Source: a virus
Reading direction: 5' to 3' (one strand)
DNA: 24,138 nt
Virus record (IMG/VR): IMGVR_UViG_3300008110_000402
Span: 1-24,138 of that record
Shown here: positions 8,081 through 17,067 of the stretch, one piece after another
Layout of the letters: the number at the start of each line of letters is the position of its first letter
How positions within the stretch are numbered: position 1 is the stretch's first letter
Notes under the pieces: generated by a model
What the model was told of the DNA's origin: nothing
The model's input: the letters and a program-made list of their open reading frames with translations, nothing else
Databases searched by the model: none
Translations under genes and position numbers: made by a program

Positions 8081-8706
8081 GGATAGGTATCTGCGTTCCA
8101 GCAAGAGGGCAAGTAGAAATATCCACATCGTTTGACTTATCTGCATTAGTTAATTACACAGCAAAACAGACGAAACACGATATTAATCTGTACACATCTA
8201 CAGGCACACTAATATTCGATCAGCGCAATGCGTTAGTAGACTCTGTTATTAACGAGCGATGTGATTACCTAATGTTTATTGATGCTGATATGCGCTTCCC
8301 AAAAGATGCGCTTGTTCGCCTTTTAAAGCATAATAAAGACATTGTTGGCGTAAACGCTACTACTCGATCAGAGCCAGTAAAGCCTACTGCCAAGAACATT
8401 AATTATGAGGAAGATGGTTCTGTATCCTGGCTGCCTGTTTATTCCAATGTTAAAAAAGGAATAGAGAAGGTAGATGCTATCGGATGCGGTGTCATTCTCA
8501 TTAAAAACTCAGCATTTAAGAAAATAGAAAAGCCTTACTTTTACTTTGAGCAACTGCCAAATGGAAAGTTATTAGGCGAAGATATTTACTTTTGCATTAA
8601 AGCGAAAGATGCAGGAATAGATACTTATGTGGATCACGATCTCTCAATGGAGATAGGCCACATAGGTAATTACACATACGGCTGGCATAATATTGAGGTG
8701 TCCTAA
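8077..8706 (+). CDS. GT-A fold glycosyltransferase (family 2-like)
   Basis: 209 residues. The chain opens with a beta strand RIGICVPARG, has FDQRNALVDSV at 47-57 and the metal-binding DxD motif in FIDADMRFP (Asp69 and Asp71), then a segment IGCGVILIKNSAF and an acidic LLGEDIYFCIKA where family members hold the catalytic acid. This is the standard order for family-2-like GT-A glycosyltransferases, which move a sugar from a nucleotide sugar onto an acceptor. Unexpectedly it lies between capsid and adaptor genes. It overlaps both neighbours (ATGA upstream, TAATG downstream), so it is co-translated with the head-tail genes. It may glycosylate a virion protein or alter host surface glycan. The acceptor is unknown. 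Confidence 0.82.
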   Translation: MRIGICVPARGQVEISTSFDLSALVNYTAKQTKHDINLYTSTGTLIFDQRNALVDSVINERCDYLMFIDADMRFPKDALVRLLKHNKDIVGVNATTRSEPVKPTAKNINYEEDGSVSWLPVYSNVKKGIEKVDAIGCGVILIKNSAFKKIEKPYFYFEQLPNGKLLGEDIYFCIKAKDAGIDTYVDHDLSMEIGHIGNYTYGWHNIEVS

Positions 8707-9326
8707 TGGGCTTTGCAACATATACAGAACTAAAGACTTCTATAGCCAACTATCTAGGTCGATCCGATTTAACGGCAGTCATCCCTGACTTTATTACGTT
8801 TGCAGAGATTCGCTTATCAAGGGAGATCCGTACTCGCCAAACCCTCAAGGCTGCTACAGCAACAATGACGGCTGGCGATTCTACTGTTGGTTTGCCTACA
8901 GACTTCTTAGAGATGCGAGATATATTTACTCAAGGCAATCCAAGAAACACCATTAGCTACTTATCGCCTTCTTTGTTCTCTCGTAATGCTAGGGCTGGTG
9001 AGTCTGGTCTGCCGGTGTACTACACAATTATTGGCGCTGAAATCCAATTTGCTCCAGTACCAGATTCGGCCTATGTTGTAGAGATGCTTTATTACTACAA
9101 GCCAACGCCATTATCTACAAGTGTAGCTACAAATGACTATCTTGCTAACTTCCCAGATGCCCTGCTTTACGCATCCTTGGCAGAGGCAGAGCCTTATCTT
9201 ATGAACGATGCCAGAGTGCAAACTTGGGCTACCTTATACGATAGAGCAACTTCTGATATTAACGGATCAGACGAAAGCTCAGAGTACGCTGGAGTACCAC
9301 TAACAATGCAATTAACATCACGATAG
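8706..9326 (+). CDS. Head-tail adaptor protein (SU10-like)
   Basis: 206 residues. The opening TYTELKTSIANYLGRSDL, then IPDFITFAEIRLSREIRTR, LPTDFLEMRDIF and, near the end, FPDALLYASLAEAEPYL form the known pattern of the phage adaptor protein family that docks under the portal (SU10/P22 gp4 or T7 gp11 equivalents). It forms a ring that joins portal to the nozzle. The start ATG 8706 overlaps the glycosyltransferase stop (TAATG). Length is typical. The family assignment is from remembered sequence pattern plus position. Confidence 0.82.
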   Translation: MGFATYTELKTSIANYLGRSDLTAVIPDFITFAEIRLSREIRTRQTLKAATATMTAGDSTVGLPTDFLEMRDIFTQGNPRNTISYLSPSLFSRNARAGESGLPVYYTIIGAEIQFAPVPDSAYVVEMLYYYKPTPLSTSVATNDYLANFPDALLYASLAEAEPYLMNDARVQTWATLYDRATSDINGSDESSEYAGVPLTMQLTSR

Positions 9327-9731: not shown

Positions 9732-10364
9732 ATGTCTACGATAGTTACCAGAAGTGGTAAGGGATCACCTCTTACCCATAATGAAGTAGATACCAACTTT
9801 AGTAATCTCAACACAGACAAAATACAGTCTGGTAATACTGTTGCTGCGCTAACAATTACATCTGCAAGCGTAGTAGATTTAGCCGTTACAGGAATTACTA
9901 GCTTTGATGGCGCACAAGGAACAGCAGGTCAAGTATTAACATCGGCTGGTACAGGCAATACTCCTGCTTGGGGCGATGTAGTAACGCCAACAGGAACGCA
10001 GACTCTTACCAATAAAACTCTAACAGACCCAGCTTTGATTGGCACTATTTTAGAAGATGTGTTTACGATTACCGATGTTGCTGCATTTGAGATTGACCCA
10101 GCAAACGGCTCTATTCAGATTATTGTCTTAGGCGCAAGTCGCACACCAAAAGGCACAAACTTTTTAGCAGGTGAGGCAATCACCCTGCTAGTAGATGATG
10201 GCACAGCGTACACAATTACTTGGACTGATTCTACATTTGGTACTGGTGGAATAACTTGGGTTGGTGGCACAGCACCTACATTGTCTACATCTGGATACAC
10301 AGTCATTGAGCTATGGAAAGTTGGCAGTAAGGTTTATGGAGCTTCAATAGGTGGAGTAGCCTAA
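9732..10364 (+). CDS. Tail fibre protein
   Basis: 210 residues. It has the N-terminal fibre motif TRSGKGSPLTHNEVDTNFSN (6-25), a beta repeat stretch with TGTQTLTNKTLTDPAL (92-107) and a C-terminal sandwich domain TFGTGGITWVGGTAPTLS ending VIELWKVGSKVYGASIGG. Each of these units recurs in many phage fibres. The N-terminal motif normally anchors the fibre and the C-terminal Trp-Gly-Gly domain is a beta-rich head. It would assemble as a trimer and help bind the host. The stop overlaps the next gene start (TAATG at 10362-10366). Confidence 0.8.
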   Translation: MSTIVTRSGKGSPLTHNEVDTNFSNLNTDKIQSGNTVAALTITSASVVDLAVTGITSFDGAQGTAGQVLTSAGTGNTPAWGDVVTPTGTQTLTNKTLTDPALIGTILEDVFTITDVAAFEIDPANGSIQIIVLGASRTPKGTNFLAGEAITLLVDDGTAYTITWTDSTFGTGGITWVGGTAPTLSTSGYTVIELWKVGSKVYGASIGGVA

Positions 10365-12364
10365 TGCTTAGTCACAAGCTAAGACGTTTCAGAGCTGCTG
10401 CTGCACAGGCTACGGATGCTAACTTTAAGCAAGTTAGCGTATTGCTTCATGGTGATGGAACTAATGGGTCGCAGAATAATACCTTTTTAGATTCTTCTAC
10501 TAATAACTTTACTATTGCCCGTAATGGCACTCCTACGCAAGGTACATACACACCGTTTAGCCAAGCAGCTGGTTATTTTAGTAATAACTTTAATGGAACA
10601 AACGACCTTTTATCACTTGCAGATAATGCACAATATACATTTGGAACTAGCAATTTTACGATAGAAGCATATATTTACAATCGTTTAAACCCGGGAACTG
10701 AAGTTCCAATTTTTAGCAAACAAAACCCAAGTCCACTAAGGGCTATACAATTTAGAATACTTTCAGCAAACACGTTAGATTTTGTATTCACTAAAAATGG
10801 TGGAACATTAATTGCTAACTTTACTACTACTTCAACTGTTCCATTAAACCAATGGGTACACATTGCTGTAGTTAGAAACGGAGTCACATTAACTTTATAT
10901 ATTAATGGAGTTTCTTCAGCTACACACACTTTGACGGCAGGAGATGCAATTGATAGTCCTGTTGCAAGCGTCATTATTGGCGGCTTTAACGCATCTTTCC
11001 CGAATAGGTTTTTTAACGGGTATATATCAAATTTTCGTTGGGTTATTGGAACTGCCGTTTATACATCCGCTTTTACCCCAAGCACTATACCGCTTACGGC
11101 CATTACAAATACAAGGTTGCTTACTTGCCAGTCTAATCGGTTTGTAGATAACTCAAGTAATAATTTTACTATTTCTCAAATTAGTACACCTTCAGTACAG
11201 CCTTGGAGTCCTTTTGCACCAACTTCTGCATATAGCACAAGCGTAAATGGTGGAAGTAATTATTTTAATGGCAGTACAGATTATTTAAGTGTTTCTGATA
11301 ATGTAAATTTACAATTTGGAACTAACGCATTTACAATTCAATGCTGGGTTTATAGAAGCGTTGCTGGAACAGCACATTCAATCGTTTCTAAGGGCGGTGC
11401 ATCAACTGGGTTTACTTTGGGTATAACTTCAACCAATGTATTGCGTTTTACTAACACAACAACTAATATTGATACAACTACAACAATTCCTGCTAATGCT
11501 TGGACTCATGTAGCTGCCGTAAGAACTAGCACATCAACAAATGGCTTTCAACTTTATATAAATGGTATAAGTTCAGCCACATCTACTGTTGCAACTGATT
11601 TTAATCAAACTTCTACGCTTTATGCTGGTGCTAATAGAAGTGCATCTACTGTAATGAATGGGTATATTGCTGACTTGCGTTATGTTAATGGAACAGCAGA
11701 AACAATAACAGTTCCAACAGCACCTTTAACAGCTATTACAAATACTTCATTACTTCTGAGTGGAACTAACGCTGGGATTGTAGATAACGCTATTAAAAGC
11801 GATTCTATTACGGTTGGTGCAACGCAAGTCAATACTTCTATTGTTAAATATGGAACAGGCTCAATTAGTTTTAATGGCACAACAAGCGTTTTAAACTTTC
11901 CTAATAATCCTTATTACGCTTTTGGAACGGGAAGTTTTACAATTGAGGCATGGGTTTACCCTAACTCTGTAACGGCTTTACAGTCATTAATAGACACTCG
12001 TTCTACCGCTACTGCCACAACAGGAATATTAATTTCAATTACTGCCCTTGGGTTTATTTCAGTAACGGTAAATAATGCTATTTTGTTTACTTCTTCTACT
12101 GGAATTACAATAAGCGCATGGACTCATGTAGCCGTAGTAAAAAGTGGCACAACAATTACGCTTTATTTAAACGGCACAAAGCCTGTTACTGGCTCAGGAA
12201 CATCATCAACTAGCCTTACAGACCAATTTTTAAGACTAGGTGCATCTGCTGGTACTGCTGCAAACTTTTACAATGGCTATTTAGATGAAGTGCGTATTAC
12301 CAATGGTGTTGCAAGATACCTTGCCGACTTTACTGCGCCTACTGCGCCATTCCCTAATCAATAA
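10364..12364 (+). CDS. Triple LamG/concanavalin A-like receptor-binding protein
   Basis: 666 residues made of three consecutive LamG-like jelly-roll domains at about 24-248, 251-456 and 459-663. Each repeats the same landmarks: a strand with YFNG/FNG, YLSLxDN or equivalent, FGTSNFTIEAYIY / FGTNAFTIQCWVY / FGTGSFTIEAWVY, then WVHIAVVRNG / WTHVAAVRTS / WTHVAVVKSG, YINGVSSAT / YINGISSAT / YLNGTKP and a final FxNGYIxxxR. The fold binds sugars or proteins, so this is a likely receptor-contact or virion-decoration protein. A 60-base line in the second domain (11281-11340) is 23% GC against 53% in a terL line, which suggests separate ancestry. No signal peptide or anchor is present. It is co-translated with the upstream fibre. 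Confidence 0.85.
   Translation: MLSHKLRRFRAAAAQATDANFKQVSVLLHGDGTNGSQNNTFLDSSTNNFTIARNGTPTQGTYTPFSQAAGYFSNNFNGTNDLLSLADNAQYTFGTSNFTIEAYIYNRLNPGTEVPIFSKQNPSPLRAIQFRILSANTLDFVFTKNGGTLIANFTTTSTVPLNQWVHIAVVRNGVTLTLYINGVSSATHTLTAGDAIDSPVASVIIGGFNASFPNRFFNGYISNFRWVIGTAVYTSAFTPSTIPLTAITNTRLLTCQSNRFVDNSSNNFTISQISTPSVQPWSPFAPTSAYSTSVNGGSNYFNGSTDYLSVSDNVNLQFGTNAFTIQCWVYRSVAGTAHSIVSKGGASTGFTLGITSTNVLRFTNTTTNIDTTTTIPANAWTHVAAVRTSTSTNGFQLYINGISSATSTVATDFNQTSTLYAGANRSASTVMNGYIADLRYVNGTAETITVPTAPLTAITNTSLLLSGTNAGIVDNAIKSDSITVGATQVNTSIVKYGTGSISFNGTTSVLNFPNNPYYAFGTGSFTIEAWVYPNSVTALQSLIDTRSTATATTGILISITALGFISVTVNNAILFTSSTGITISAWTHVAVVKSGTTITLYLNGTKPVTGSGTSSTSLTDQFLRLGASAGTAANFYNGYLDEVRITNGVARYLADFTAPTAPFPNQ
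10433..12352 (+). repeat. Three tandem LamG-domain repeats
   Basis: Three diverged copies at about 10433-11107, 11114-11731 and 11738-12352. The repeat is plain in protein (FGT-x-x-FTI-[EQ]-x-[WY] and W-[TV]-H-[IV]-A-x-V in each) but weak in DNA, so the duplications are old. Confidence 0.8.
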
Positions 12365-12837: not shown

Positions 12838-12855
12838 TGTTTGGATAAAAAAATA

Positions 12856-13401
12856 ATGGCTTACGAAGATCAATATGTCGTATATGGTTATTGGGAATAC
12901 GATTATTGCGTAGGAGATGTATTAGCTACAGATGGTGCTGGATCTGTAAATGGCATTGGTACTGCTATTGCTTTTCCTACAGTAATATTACTTTTTTCCG
13001 CAAGCATTACAGGAGTTGGCTCTACATCCGCAGATGGCATAAGAGTAGCATTGGGTGATGGCTCTATTAACGGAGTTGGAACGGTTGTATCAGAAGGAAT
13101 AAGGCAAGCATTAGGCGCTGGATCTATTAATGGCATAGGATCAATAAGTGGCCTTGGAAACTTTACTGCTAGTGGAAACGGATCAATCGTAGGATTGGGA
13201 ACAGTTTTAGTAAATGGCAATGCGGTTTTTTCAGCAAACTCATCTGTAAACGGAATTGGTACAATAGTTGTTGTTGGGTATCGAATTGGTGAGGAGTGGA
13301 GCAATTCTGGAGTAGGCGGTAATACTTGGACAGCAGCAAATGTTACAAGCAATAATTGGACAGACAAAACAACGGGAAGTAATACATGGCTACCTCAATA
13401 G
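12856..13401 (+). CDS. Protein with an exact 20-residue GS(I/V)NG(I/V)G repeat
   Basis: 181 residues. ATG 12856 is chosen over the in-frame TTG 12841 because GGAT sits 8-11 bases before it. Six units start at residues 30, 50, 70, 90, 110 and 130 with S-[IV]-[NTV]-G-[IVL]-G-[ST], an exact period of 20. This is likely a beta-solenoid or stacked hairpin, as in phage proteins with GVG-type repeats. Units 3 and 4 also share GIRxALGxG. The C-terminal 30 residues have three Asn-x-Trp steps (GNTWT, NNWTD, SNTWL), a Trp-repeat tail common in phage proteins and possibly carbohydrate-binding. Its end overlaps the nozzle-like gene by 16 bases. The function is unassigned, and a fibre tip or side decoration is most plausible. 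Confidence 0.7.
   Translation: MAYEDQYVVYGYWEYDYCVGDVLATDGAGSVNGIGTAIAFPTVILLFSASITGVGSTSADGIRVALGDGSINGVGTVVSEGIRQALGAGSINGIGSISGLGNFTASGNGSIVGLGTVLVNGNAVFSANSSVNGIGTIVVVGYRIGEEWSNSGVGGNTWTAANVTSNNWTDKTTGSNTWLPQ
12943..13302 (+). repeat. Six 60-bp coding repeats
   Basis: Units start at 12943, 13003, 13063, 13123, 13183 and 13243, an exact 60-base period. DNA copies have diverged at third positions. The shared core is tct/agc-(att/gta)-(aat/aca)-gg(c/a)-(att/gtt)-gg. It is in phase with the 20-residue protein repeat. Confidence 0.8.
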
Positions 13402-14810
13402 TAGAATTTGGCGAATGGCTACCAGACCAAGCTGGAATAACTGGTTCTATACAGGATGCCTACAATGTCGTTCCCCAGGCAGTAGGCTATGGCCCATTTC
13501 CTGAGTTGGTAGAGTTATCTGGCGCAGCAAGCGAAAACCTAAACAATGTATTTGCTACTAAGTTTGGTGGCACTACTACTTTGTTTGCTGGTGGCTTTAC
13601 TAAACTATTTAAATACAATTCGACTACATTAGCATTAGCAGATGTTTCTAAATCTGGTGGATACTCTAGTTCTAATCGTTGGACTTTTGCTCAATATGGG
13701 CCATCCCTGATTGCTGCCAATGGCGTAAACAAACTCCAAGTATGGAACTTAGCAAGTTCTACAGCATTTGCTGATTTAGATGCCGCAGCTCCTACTGCTA
13801 AGTTTGTGACTACAGTTAGAGATTTTGTAGTGGCTGGCAATGTATCAGGAGAGGAATCTAAGGTTTATTGGTCTGATTTAAACGATGAAACCGATTGGAC
13901 TCCTGGGGCTACAAGCCAATCTGATAGCCAAGTCATTGCAGATGGTGGCGATATTCGTGGCATTACTGGTGGTGAGTATGGATTGGTTTTCCTAGAAAAA
14001 GCAATCTCTAGGATGTCTTATGTAGGCGCTCCACTATTCTTTCAGTTTGATACCATTGCTAGGAATATTGGGTGCTATGAGGCAAATTCAATAGCCCAGT
14101 TTGGTAACTTAGTATTTTTCCTAGCTGATGATGGCTTTTATATGTGCGATGGGCAGACAGTTACGCCTATCGGAGCAGAAAAAGTAGATCGCTACTTCTT
14201 TACTTTTGCAGATCAATCTCAAATTGATAAGATGAGTGCCAGCATAGATGTCATTCGTAAACTAATCGTTTGGCAATACACAGACATCTTTGCCCAGAAA
14301 CGATTAATAATTTACAACTTCCAAACTAAAAAATGGTCTGAGGCGGACACTACTTCTACTTATGTAGCAACATTGGCACAGGCTGGAGTAACCCTAGAAG
14401 GCTTAGATACCTTTGGGAATATGGACACTATAAGCACTTCTTTTGATAGCCGTATTTGGGCTGGCGGTAAGTTTGTATTGGCAGGAGTAAAAGATACCAA
14501 AATTGTTACTTTTACTGGGGCTAATAAGTCTGGTTATGTCACTACAGGCGATCTAGGCAACGGAAACCAGTCAATCATTATGTTAGCCAAGCCAAAGGTA
14601 GATACTGGCTCTGCAAGCGTTTCTGTAGCCTCTAGAGCGTTGTTAAACGAAGTCCCTAGCTTTGGTACTGCCGTAGCAGCAGACAGCGAGAACAGGGTAT
14701 CCCTACGTGCTGGTGGCAAATACCATAGAGTAAGGGTTTACCCTAGCGGTGCTAACTGGAAAACGGCTGCTGCCGTAGAAATTGATTTAGTTCCACAGGG
14801 CGGCAGATAA
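13386..14810 (+). CDS. Nozzle / DNA-stabilisation-like beta-propeller protein
   Basis: 474 residues, overlapping the previous gene by 16 bases. The chain consists of repeated beta blades: TLFAGGFTKLFKYN, SLIAANGVNKLQVWN, DFVVAGNV, KVYWSDLNDETDW, LVFLEKAISRM, LVFFLADDGFYMCDG, LIVWQYTDIF and a final KYHRVRVYPSG. The size equals that of P22 gp10 (472 residues), a six-bladed nozzle or packaged-DNA stabilisation protein, and the order after the fibre region fits a phage tail hub or nozzle. It would close the tail tip below the adaptor and hold DNA in. Similar proteins appear in many environmental podoviruses. The name is inference from size, blade pattern and position, since I cannot align to gp10. 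Confidence 0.72.
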   Translation: MATSIVEFGEWLPDQAGITGSIQDAYNVVPQAVGYGPFPELVELSGAASENLNNVFATKFGGTTTLFAGGFTKLFKYNSTTLALADVSKSGGYSSSNRWTFAQYGPSLIAANGVNKLQVWNLASSTAFADLDAAAPTAKFVTTVRDFVVAGNVSGEESKVYWSDLNDETDWTPGATSQSDSQVIADGGDIRGITGGEYGLVFLEKAISRMSYVGAPLFFQFDTIARNIGCYEANSIAQFGNLVFFLADDGFYMCDGQTVTPIGAEKVDRYFFTFADQSQIDKMSASIDVIRKLIVWQYTDIFAQKRLIIYNFQTKKWSEADTTSTYVATLAQAGVTLEGLDTFGNMDTISTSFDSRIWAGGKFVLAGVKDTKIVTFTGANKSGYVTTGDLGNGNQSIIMLAKPKVDTGSASVSVASRALLNEVPSFGTAVAADSENRVSLRAGGKYHRVRVYPSGANWKTAAAVEIDLVPQGGR

Positions 14811-15592
14811 TGTTTCGTAGACTTCCTCCTGCTGGTGGCGATCAACGAGCTGTAGCCGAGATCGTCAATGGAATGATGGATGGCAAGACCAACAATACTG
14901 GGCTTGTTACATTAGCCACAGGGAACGCTACAACCACCACTATTAATGATCCTAGAATAAGTAGAGATTCTATGATTCTGCTAGTGCCTAAGTCGGCTGC
15001 TGCTTTTGCCGATACTGCACCTTATGGAGCGTTTCAAGACTCTACAGATCAAGCGGCAGCAAGCACTACAACTGCATATCCAATGACATTTGACACCACA
15101 GATTTTTCTAATGGTGTTTATTTATCTAATAGTAGTCGTTTAAATGCTAGAAATGCAGGTATTTATAATGTGCAATTTAGCGTACAGTTACAAAATACAG
15201 ATAACGCACAACATACTGTAGATATTTGGTTTAGAAAAAACGGTACTAATATTACAGCATCAAATAGTATGTTTACTGTACCAGCAAGAAAAAGCGCAAG
15301 TATTTATGGTCATCTTATTGCAGCCATAAATTACTTTGTAGAACTTGCAGCAAATGATTATGTAGAAATTGTATGGCGAGCAGAAAGTACAACAGTTTCA
15401 ATAGAACAACTGCCAACGCAAACTAGCCCAACAAGACCAGCAACACCATCAGTTATAGCAACTATGCAGTATGTAGCCCCTAACGCTATGGATAATGTGT
15501 ATGTCAGCGCACAGACAAATGGCAGCGCAACACTTAGCCATTTTGCCAACAGTACGGCAAGCAAAACTTATGGATATGTAATAGTTGGATAA
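14810..15592 (+). CDS. Virion protein with a C1q-like domain nested in a beta domain
   Basis: 260 residues. The N-terminus MFRRLPPAGGDQRAVAEIVNG is common in phage virion proteins. Residues 29-66 (TGLVTLATGNATTTT through SMILLVPKSAAAF) and 225-260 (AMDNVYVSAQTNG, then GYVIVG at 255-260) are two halves of one domain that in many phages is uninterrupted. Between them, residues about 67-224 form a C1q/TNF-like jelly roll: YNVQFSVQLQN, HTVDIWFRKNGTNI, LIAAINYFVELAANDYVEIVW and PSVIATMQYV. The inserted stretch is AT-rich (sampled 60-base lines 27-37% GC against 53% upstream at 14821-14880). C1q-like domains usually form trimers that bind surfaces. The stop/start overlaps the nozzle-like gene (TAATG). 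Confidence 0.75.
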   Translation: MFRRLPPAGGDQRAVAEIVNGMMDGKTNNTGLVTLATGNATTTTINDPRISRDSMILLVPKSAAAFADTAPYGAFQDSTDQAAASTTTAYPMTFDTTDFSNGVYLSNSSRLNARNAGIYNVQFSVQLQNTDNAQHTVDIWFRKNGTNITASNSMFTVPARKSASIYGHLIAAINYFVELAANDYVEIVWRAESTTVSIEQLPTQTSPTRPATPSVIATMQYVAPNAMDNVYVSAQTNGSATLSHFANSTASKTYGYVIVG

Positions 15593-16017: not shown

Positions 16018-17067
16018 ATGGGTGGAATAGGAAGTCTTTTTGGCGGTGGCGGTGGACAACAAGTTCAAGAAAGAACTACTACTACTCGCAACGAAATTGA
16101 TCCAATGCTCAAGCCTTATGTAGAGTTTGGTTTGGGTGAGGCTAGGAAGTTATACGAAGCACAAGGCCCATCCTACTTCCCAGGGCAAACCTATGTAAGC
16201 CCTACGGAAACCACTTTATCTGCGCTACAGTCTGGTGAACAACGAGCTATGGCTGGCAGTCCATTACTAAGGGCAGCACAGGCTGAAAACTTGGCTAATG
16301 TACAGGGTCAATACTTAGGCGGAAACCCTTTCTTTCAAGGCGCATTTAATCCTGCTGCTAAGGCTGCTCAACAATCCTACTATGATGCTATCCAAAATGT
16401 AGCCTCTAAAGCCTCTAGTGCTGGTCGCTATGGATCTGGCGCTTATGGTCAATTGACAGATCGTGCCGGTGGCACTTTTGCTACTGCGCTTACTGATGTT
16501 GCTGGAAAGTTAGCCTATCAGAATTATGCAGATGAAAGAGCAAGACAGGCTGCTGCTACTGCTGCTGCGCCTGGCATGGCAGAGGCAGACTACGGAGATA
16601 TTCAGCGTTTACTAGCAATCGGACAAGGCAGAGAAGGTTATGCTCAGACTGCATTGCAAGACCAAATCAATCGTTACAACTACGAGCAAAATCTTCCACA
16701 AGCAAAACTGCAATCATTCCTAAGTGGCGTATATGGCGCACCTAGTGGCGGTATTTCTACATCACAACAGCCTATCTACTCTAACCCAGGACAACAAGCT
16801 CTAGGTAACTTGCTAGGAATTGCTGGTACAGGCGCACAACTCTATACTGCATTTTCCGATATTCGTACAAAAGAAAATATTGTCAATATTGGTAATGGTA
16901 AACACAATCTACCAGTTTATATGTTTGACTATAAGCCCAAGTGGAAAGACCAAGCTGGTCATGGCAAGTTTATTGGTTACATGGCTCACGAAGTGGAAGA
17001 AGTTGCTCCACAAGCAGTTATTACTCGTGCAGATGGAATTAAACAAGTTCGCTACGATTTAGTTTAG
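16018..17067 (+). CDS. Ejection-type protein with C-terminal S74 auto-chaperone domain
   Basis: 349 residues. The N-terminal 279 residues are Gly/Ala/Gln-rich with short helices (ARKLYEAQGPSYFPGQTYV, then QQSYYDAIQNVASKASSAGR), resembling phage DNA-injection proteins. Residues 280-349 are a Peptidase_S74-type intramolecular chaperone: SDIRTKENIV, LPVYMFDYKP, GHGKFIGYMAHEVEEVAPQAV and GIKQVRYDLV. In that family the domain cuts itself off just before the Ser of the SD-x-R-x-K motif (here Ser280) after helping a trimer fold. Here it sits on an ejection-like rather than spike-like protein. It starts one base after the GNAT stop and is followed by three more ejection-type genes. Trimerisation and cleavage are inference. 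Confidence 0.72.
   Translation: MGGIGSLFGGGGGQQVQERTTTTRNEIDPMLKPYVEFGLGEARKLYEAQGPSYFPGQTYVSPTETTLSALQSGEQRAMAGSPLLRAAQAENLANVQGQYLGGNPFFQGAFNPAAKAAQQSYYDAIQNVASKASSAGRYGSGAYGQLTDRAGGTFATALTDVAGKLAYQNYADERARQAAATAAAPGMAEADYGDIQRLLAIGQGREGYAQTALQDQINRYNYEQNLPQAKLQSFLSGVYGAPSGGISTSQQPIYSNPGQQALGNLLGIAGTGAQLYTAFSDIRTKENIVNIGNGKHNLPVYMFDYKPKWKDQAGHGKFIGYMAHEVEEVAPQAVITRADGIKQVRYDLV

Follow-up and report, generated by a model that had tools for sequence, protein, structure and literature searches.

The window analysed here is a stretch of viral DNA of 24,138 nucleotides whose virion genes follow the order terminase, portal, major head protein, SU10-type adaptor, fibre-like genes, nozzle and then the gene that concerns us, which encodes a protein of 260 amino acids. 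That gene lies at positions 14810-15592 of the plus strand, exactly the open reading frame named in the original prediction. Its ATG shares one base with the stop codon of the preceding gene (TAATG). The preceding gene (13386-14810, plus strand) encodes a tail protein of the nozzle or gp10 type, which we used as a marker of kinship that is independent of the insert discussed below. Further upstream, the gene for the SU10-type adaptor protein (8706-9326, plus strand; PF24175, E 6.9e-38) fixes the order adaptor, fibres, nozzle, 260-residue protein. On the 3' side lie a weakly GNAT-like gene and then the gene for an ejection-type protein (16018-17067; phrog_4287). At its C-terminus the latter carries an S74 intramolecular-chaperone domain (PF13884, E 8.8e-8), a type whose usual place is the end of tail fibres and spikes.

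Two genes upstream of the nozzle gene encode repeat proteins. At 10364-12364, a protein of 666 amino acids carries three Laminin_G_3/concanavalin-like repeats (PF13385, E 1.2e-62); its gene is AT-rich, as is the C1q-like insert, and the protein is probably another surface-contact protein. At 12841-13401, a protein of 186 amino acids consists of repeated G-x-G-S-(I/V)-N-G-(I/V)-G-T units and has no family match; the opposite strand of this gene also holds a long open frame, at 12903-13367.

What kind of protein follows the nozzle? By sequence, the 260-residue protein has no confident family in PHROGs, Pfam or the PDB. The Pfam C1q/TNF models do not match it at E<=1, and the TNF model gives weak matches in four of 50 relatives (best E 0.002). 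A scan of GTDB genomes yielded a single truncated match, in an alphaproteobacterial MAG and lying where a contig ends, which names no host.

An AlphaFold2 model built with 50 relatives (mean pLDDT 86, pTM 0.74) begins with a helix (residues 12-23) and three strands (30-34, 42-46 and 55-60), continues through a short helix (63-66) into a jelly roll and closes with three further strands (231-236, 239-243 and 253-259). Short relatives, a sequence profile and the model together delimit an outer frame in two parts: residues 1-66 (14810-15007, plus strand), with an anchor segment that includes the first helix and with strands 1-3 of a beta-sandwich, and residues 229-260 plus the stop codon (15494-15592, plus strand), with strands 4-6. 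Between them, according to the model and its fold matches, residues 68-225 (15011-15484, plus strand) form a nested C1q/TNF-like jelly roll of the ten-strand type. This segment matches C1q, BclA/BxpB and TNF chains with Z scores of 14-16.8, at 2.1-3.3 Å rmsd over 123-138 residues for the C1q/TNF-type rows. Such a jelly roll had been proposed from the sequence to separate two halves of one domain, and the best Z score of 16.8 bears this out. The halves themselves, placed at residues 29-66 and 225-260, do share a domain, but the frame also takes in residues 1-28 with their predicted helix.

Natural short relatives served as the insert-free form, and long and short models were compared by the order of their elements. 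The AlphaFold2 model of one such short protein, L087 (60 relatives, pLDDT 78), contains a helix (15-26), strands at 33-37, 44-48 and 57-62, a second helix (65-73) and strands at 75-80, 83-87 and 97-103. This predicted order, H-E-E-E-H-E-E-E, is that of the window model minus the jelly roll, and in the models the insert enters the frame in the loop that links strand 3 to strand 4. The short model also aligns with a viral model of 267 amino acids, A0A6J5M4K3, with a TM score of 0.87 over 264 alignment columns; we take the latter to be a homologue with an insert, its two halves matching the short fold when superposed. The expectation that the two halves would join in one fold is supported by the elements common to the short and window models and by this alignment.

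To what is the frame itself related? The fold list of the short model is topped by C-terminal beta-sandwiches of tailspikes at 23-26% identity: 9k4a (Z 8.2), 7w1c (7.3), 7w1d (7.2) and 7eea from Pam1 (7.1), although Z scores of this size can reflect a common arrangement. The Pfam family K1-lyase_C (PF24146) weakly matches eight of 60 short proteins (best E 0.0037) and does not match the window protein. Z scores of about 7-8, the identities and the Pfam matches agree that the frame resembles a tailspike C-terminal beta-sandwich, a resemblance that we take as a lead, not as proof.

The original prediction held that the frame is contiguous in other phages, and such forms exist. With residues 1-69 as the query, tblastn found gp48 of Methylophilales phage Venkman (104 aa, 52% identity) and a homologue in phage C72C1 (103 aa, 38% identity). 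Both genes lie directly 3' of the nozzle gene, in the slot of the window gene, and both proteins match the first and last parts of the window protein and lack its middle. In IMG/VR there are hundreds of short relatives of about 100 amino acids, consisting of the frame alone, and hundreds of long ones. A profile of seven natural short proteins matches the window protein twice and collinearly (70.6 and 20.2 bits), and both pieces are present in all 82 of 82 long proteins. Against a profile of 60 short proteins, the C-terminal half alone scores 27.6 bits, whereas 5,000 shuffles reached 9.9 at most, and the insert alone scores about 0.

Near relatives were sampled blind to the insert by searching IMG/VR with the window nozzle protein and reading the next gene. 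Among the 76 neighbours read, 67 contain the jelly roll and five are complete short forms (L452, L453, L469, L473 and L509); three are truncated where their contigs end and one was misread. Insert-free relatives thus occur close to the window, as the original prediction required: L452 and L453 encode a protein of 100 amino acids in the same slot beside a nozzle 96% identical to the window's, and L469 and L473 do so beside nozzles 83% and 82% identical. In the last two the frame continues without a break across the insertion site, ...VPKTADAF(A/S)TTVYASAQSNGSATITH..., whereas the window reads ...VPKSAAAFAD-[insert]-NVYVSAQTNGSATLSH.... In long and short forms alike, the reading frame overlaps or almost overlaps that of the nozzle gene directly before it. 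Among the matches listed (similarity-based sampling, best 80 loci per scan), the jelly roll was the sole type of insert seen at this site.

Three public genomes add to this picture of the relatives. An unannotated gap in MW202481.1 (29560-30350; L086 4990-5779) holds a full-length long homologue with 65% identity. MW202710.1 and MW202462.1 (L330 and L331) are titled 'Myoviridae sp.'; their order of portal, nozzle and nested C1q gene is the same as in the window's podovirus-type block.

The base composition of the insert differs from that of the frame. The 60-base lines at 15121, 15181, 15241 and 15301 contain 26.7, 30.0, 36.7 and 30.0% GC, and 14821-14880 contains 53.3%, as first reported; line 15481-15540 is 46.7% rather than the 45% given. 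The GC content of the whole insert is 35.8%, and 7.5% of 450-nucleotide coding windows are equally low. Third codon positions provide a sharper contrast, with 15% GC3 in the insert and 35% on either side. We considered the GC dip as a sign of foreign origin and kept it as weak support: the LamG-repeat gene is nearly as AT-rich.

Evidence of exchange comes from comparing relatives. The window and L029 are 95% identical in the frame and 55% in the insert at the protein level; for the window and L019 the figures are 66% and 89%. In such alignments the identities of frame and insert are decoupled. Binned along the DNA, identity steps at the domain edges in both directions, giving reciprocal mosaics: the window and L008 are 83-93% identical in insert bins and mostly 45-70% in the flanking genes, whereas the insert is the most divergent part of the window and L028.

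We then asked how informative sites along the gene group four sequences: the window, L028, L008 and L060. From nucleotides 1 to 200 the sites favor window with L028 by 31 to 0; from 229 to 649 they favor window with L008 by 94 to 1; and after 660 they return to window with L028 by 10 to 0. Because the grouping flips twice, a single tree is excluded. Two crossovers fit, one within gene nucleotides 210-229 (15019-15038, plus strand; codons 70-77, encoding the conserved APYGAFQ) and one within 649-669 (15458-15478, plus strand; codons 217-223).

Could these patterns arise without exchange? Pairs such as window and L028 might suggest an insert that evolves very fast in place. But divergence in place could not leave two inserts more similar to each other than their flanks are, and we rejected it on the reciprocal pair of window and L008 and on the two clean switches of the quartet; we regard it as extremely improbable. 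Nor do we attribute the mosaics to chimaeric assembly of metagenomic contigs. Every mosaic sequence does come from a metagenome assembly, and single cases of this kind may occur, but many contigs, drawn from different samples, repeat the pattern with switches at the same domain edges and with frames open throughout, and isolates and complete genomes carry both the short and the long form. Chimaeras as the general explanation are very unlikely.

Phylogenetic trees bear on how often the insert has changed. Inserts of the window's type (class A) and of L028's type (class B) are divergent versions of the domain. On the domain tree the class-B inserts form one supported clade; on the frame tree, computed from frames aligned without the insert, class B requires 6 changes, against 6.6 with random labels. 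A DNA tree of the nozzle genes of 23 near relatives (state A in 13, B in six, none in four) requires eight changes, against a mean of 9.0 with shuffled labels, and 53 of 200 shuffles gave a count as low; the states are scattered over this tree about as much as shuffled labels are. On this tree the nearest neighbours of the window and its twin L448 are the insert-free L452 and L453 (support 87). The initial frame tree united the long forms in a single clade. L469 and L473, once added, fall among the long frames, which weakens that picture; gain and loss of the insert both fit.

At the level of sequence, these comparisons show nesting, empty sites and repeated exchange in place among related phages. 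We tentatively suggest a further step, to which we give somewhat less than an even chance: the loop may be a preferred landing site for a host-contact head. Natural freshwater phages would acquire this head, drop it or trade it by recombining at the conserved edges, one marked by APYGAFQ and the other by strand 4, without involving the anchor and at a pace above that at which adjacent structural genes diverge. If so, host recognition would change without touching the rest of the tail.

The jelly roll also occurs elsewhere. Across the fetched loci it is nested in this frame in 85 cases, C-terminal in other proteins in 81 and internal before other sequence in 29; the nested setting was seen solely in this frame. 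On the domain tree, a large set of the C-terminal copies arises inside the nested group. Judged by this distribution, the jelly roll is a general mobile phage domain. The internal copies often precede collagen-like GPTG repeats; L413, L416, L419, L442 and others have long repeats of this kind directly after the C1q-like domain. Animal C1q proteins have the reverse order, collagen first and head last. Limnohabitans phage DC33 (L083, PQ492659.1) encodes a free-standing C1q-like protein in a 39-kb genome, a size for which its 'Inoviridae' label looks wrong. In Pelagibacter phage HTVC106P, a distant C1q-like domain forms the C-terminus of gp52, a protein of 281 amino acids encoded a few genes after the nozzle (L325 8849-9694).

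That related jelly rolls end so many kinds of phage protein could mean that the 260-residue protein decorates the head or capsid, or forms a small side fibre, and does not sit at the tail tip. Yet its position right after the nozzle gene, with frames that overlap or nearly do, is kept in long and short forms alike. We consider this alternative unlikely.

We favor a model, and think it likely, in which this small protein of the virion tail combines a constant frame with an exchangeable jelly-roll head, acts as a trimer at the tail tip and contacts the host envelope. The conserved N-terminal segment and its short helix would probably anchor the protein at the nozzle end of the tail. The small beta-sandwich that follows, probably related in fold to tailspike C-terminal domains, would hold the entire jelly roll in the loop that links strand 3 to strand 4. 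Tailspike C-terminal domains, like C1q/TNF domains, form trimers, and a C1q/TNF domain has its two termini next to each other, an arrangement well suited to insertion into a loop. Because those ends are adjacent, the jelly roll could be added, removed or replaced without disturbing the anchor. The trimer would occupy the needle or plug slot of the tail tip, where the jelly roll would meet the host cell envelope and its exchange would alter recognition or DNA delivery. Repeated exchange, together with the known hypervariability of phage C1q domains, leads us to favor such host contact. Recognition may instead lie in the three-LamG gene (10364-12364) and other fibre-like genes.

The main caution regarding host contact comes from work on P22 and Sf6: in P22, the TNF-like knob of Sf6 type gave the needle no species specificity, and the tip affected the rate of DNA delivery (PMC3741392). 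By analogy, the nested jelly roll could serve as a structural clamp on the trimer, or as a knob at the needle tip, and adjust the timing of DNA release or virion stability. The gene does occupy the needle slot of P22 and SU10, the TNF-like knobs of Sf6 and HS1 needles affect delivery rather than species specificity (PMC3741392), and the absence of the jelly roll from near relatives marks it as dispensable, which we count in favor. But strong, repeated swaps of divergent versions are more typical of surface-contact parts, and the predicted protein lacks a long needle shaft. We judge this account improbable, though it deserves more weight than a head or side-fibre role, and we retain the model of an exchangeable head in contact with the host.

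Reports of phages exchanging host-contact parts mostly concern C-terminal pieces. In this case the domain is internal, and it is present, missing or substituted at constant joints beside a tail protein that is 82-100% identical. Such backgrounds offer natural near-controls for asking what the domain does.

How does this protein compare with known systems? In SU10, the adaptor gp11, nozzle gp17 and needle gp18 have been identified (PMC9509320), and the window and its relatives share this order, with adaptor, fibres and nozzle followed by the gene studied here. The needles of P22 and SU10 have a long trimeric coiled-coil shaft; the window model contains no such shaft, just the 12-residue helix (12-23) before the beta domain, and for this reason we do not call the protein a needle. 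Sf6 and HS1 needles likewise carry a TNF-like jelly roll, optional and horizontally acquired, and are encoded right after a gp10-type gene (PMC3741392), but there the knob caps the C-terminal end of a long needle and is not nested in a loop. The K1-lyase_C type of sandwich, found in Klebsiella phage K1 lyase, K64-1 S2-4 and cyanophage Pam1, resembles the frame in its predicted fold. There the sandwich ends a long beta-helix tailspike; the frame's sandwich accounts for most of the short protein and receives the jelly roll in the long one.

C1q domains of marine and cryoconite phages are hypervariable and have been proposed as a receptor-binding part; like the window's, they are under-recruited or replaced between near-identical phages (PMC3909814, PMC7468147). 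They are not described as nested, and the marine variable domain comes after a better-conserved N-terminal part. In the literature searched, which takes in a minority of subscription journals, we came across no account of a podovirus tail protein with a nested C1q domain.

The closest parallel is the evolved Dit of lactococcal skunaviruses and related siphophages, in which a binding-type domain is inserted within a conserved tail protein, both forms occur among near relatives and a role in adsorption has been tested experimentally (PMC10688798). In the window protein, too, both ends align with a full-length insert-free orthologue in the same gene slot. The two differ in that here the frame is a tailspike-like sandwich, the insert is C1q/TNF-like rather than a carbohydrate-binding module and the tail is that of a podovirus. 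Insertion had been called an uncommon route for swapping host-contact parts. The swapping is supported by sequence, but evolved Dit sets a precedent for the route, and the part swapped is a putative host-contact domain. Internal insertion and hypervariable phage C1q domains were thus both known already; what the window offers is one small protein that joins evolved Dit insertions, TNF-like needle knobs and hypervariable phage C1q domains.
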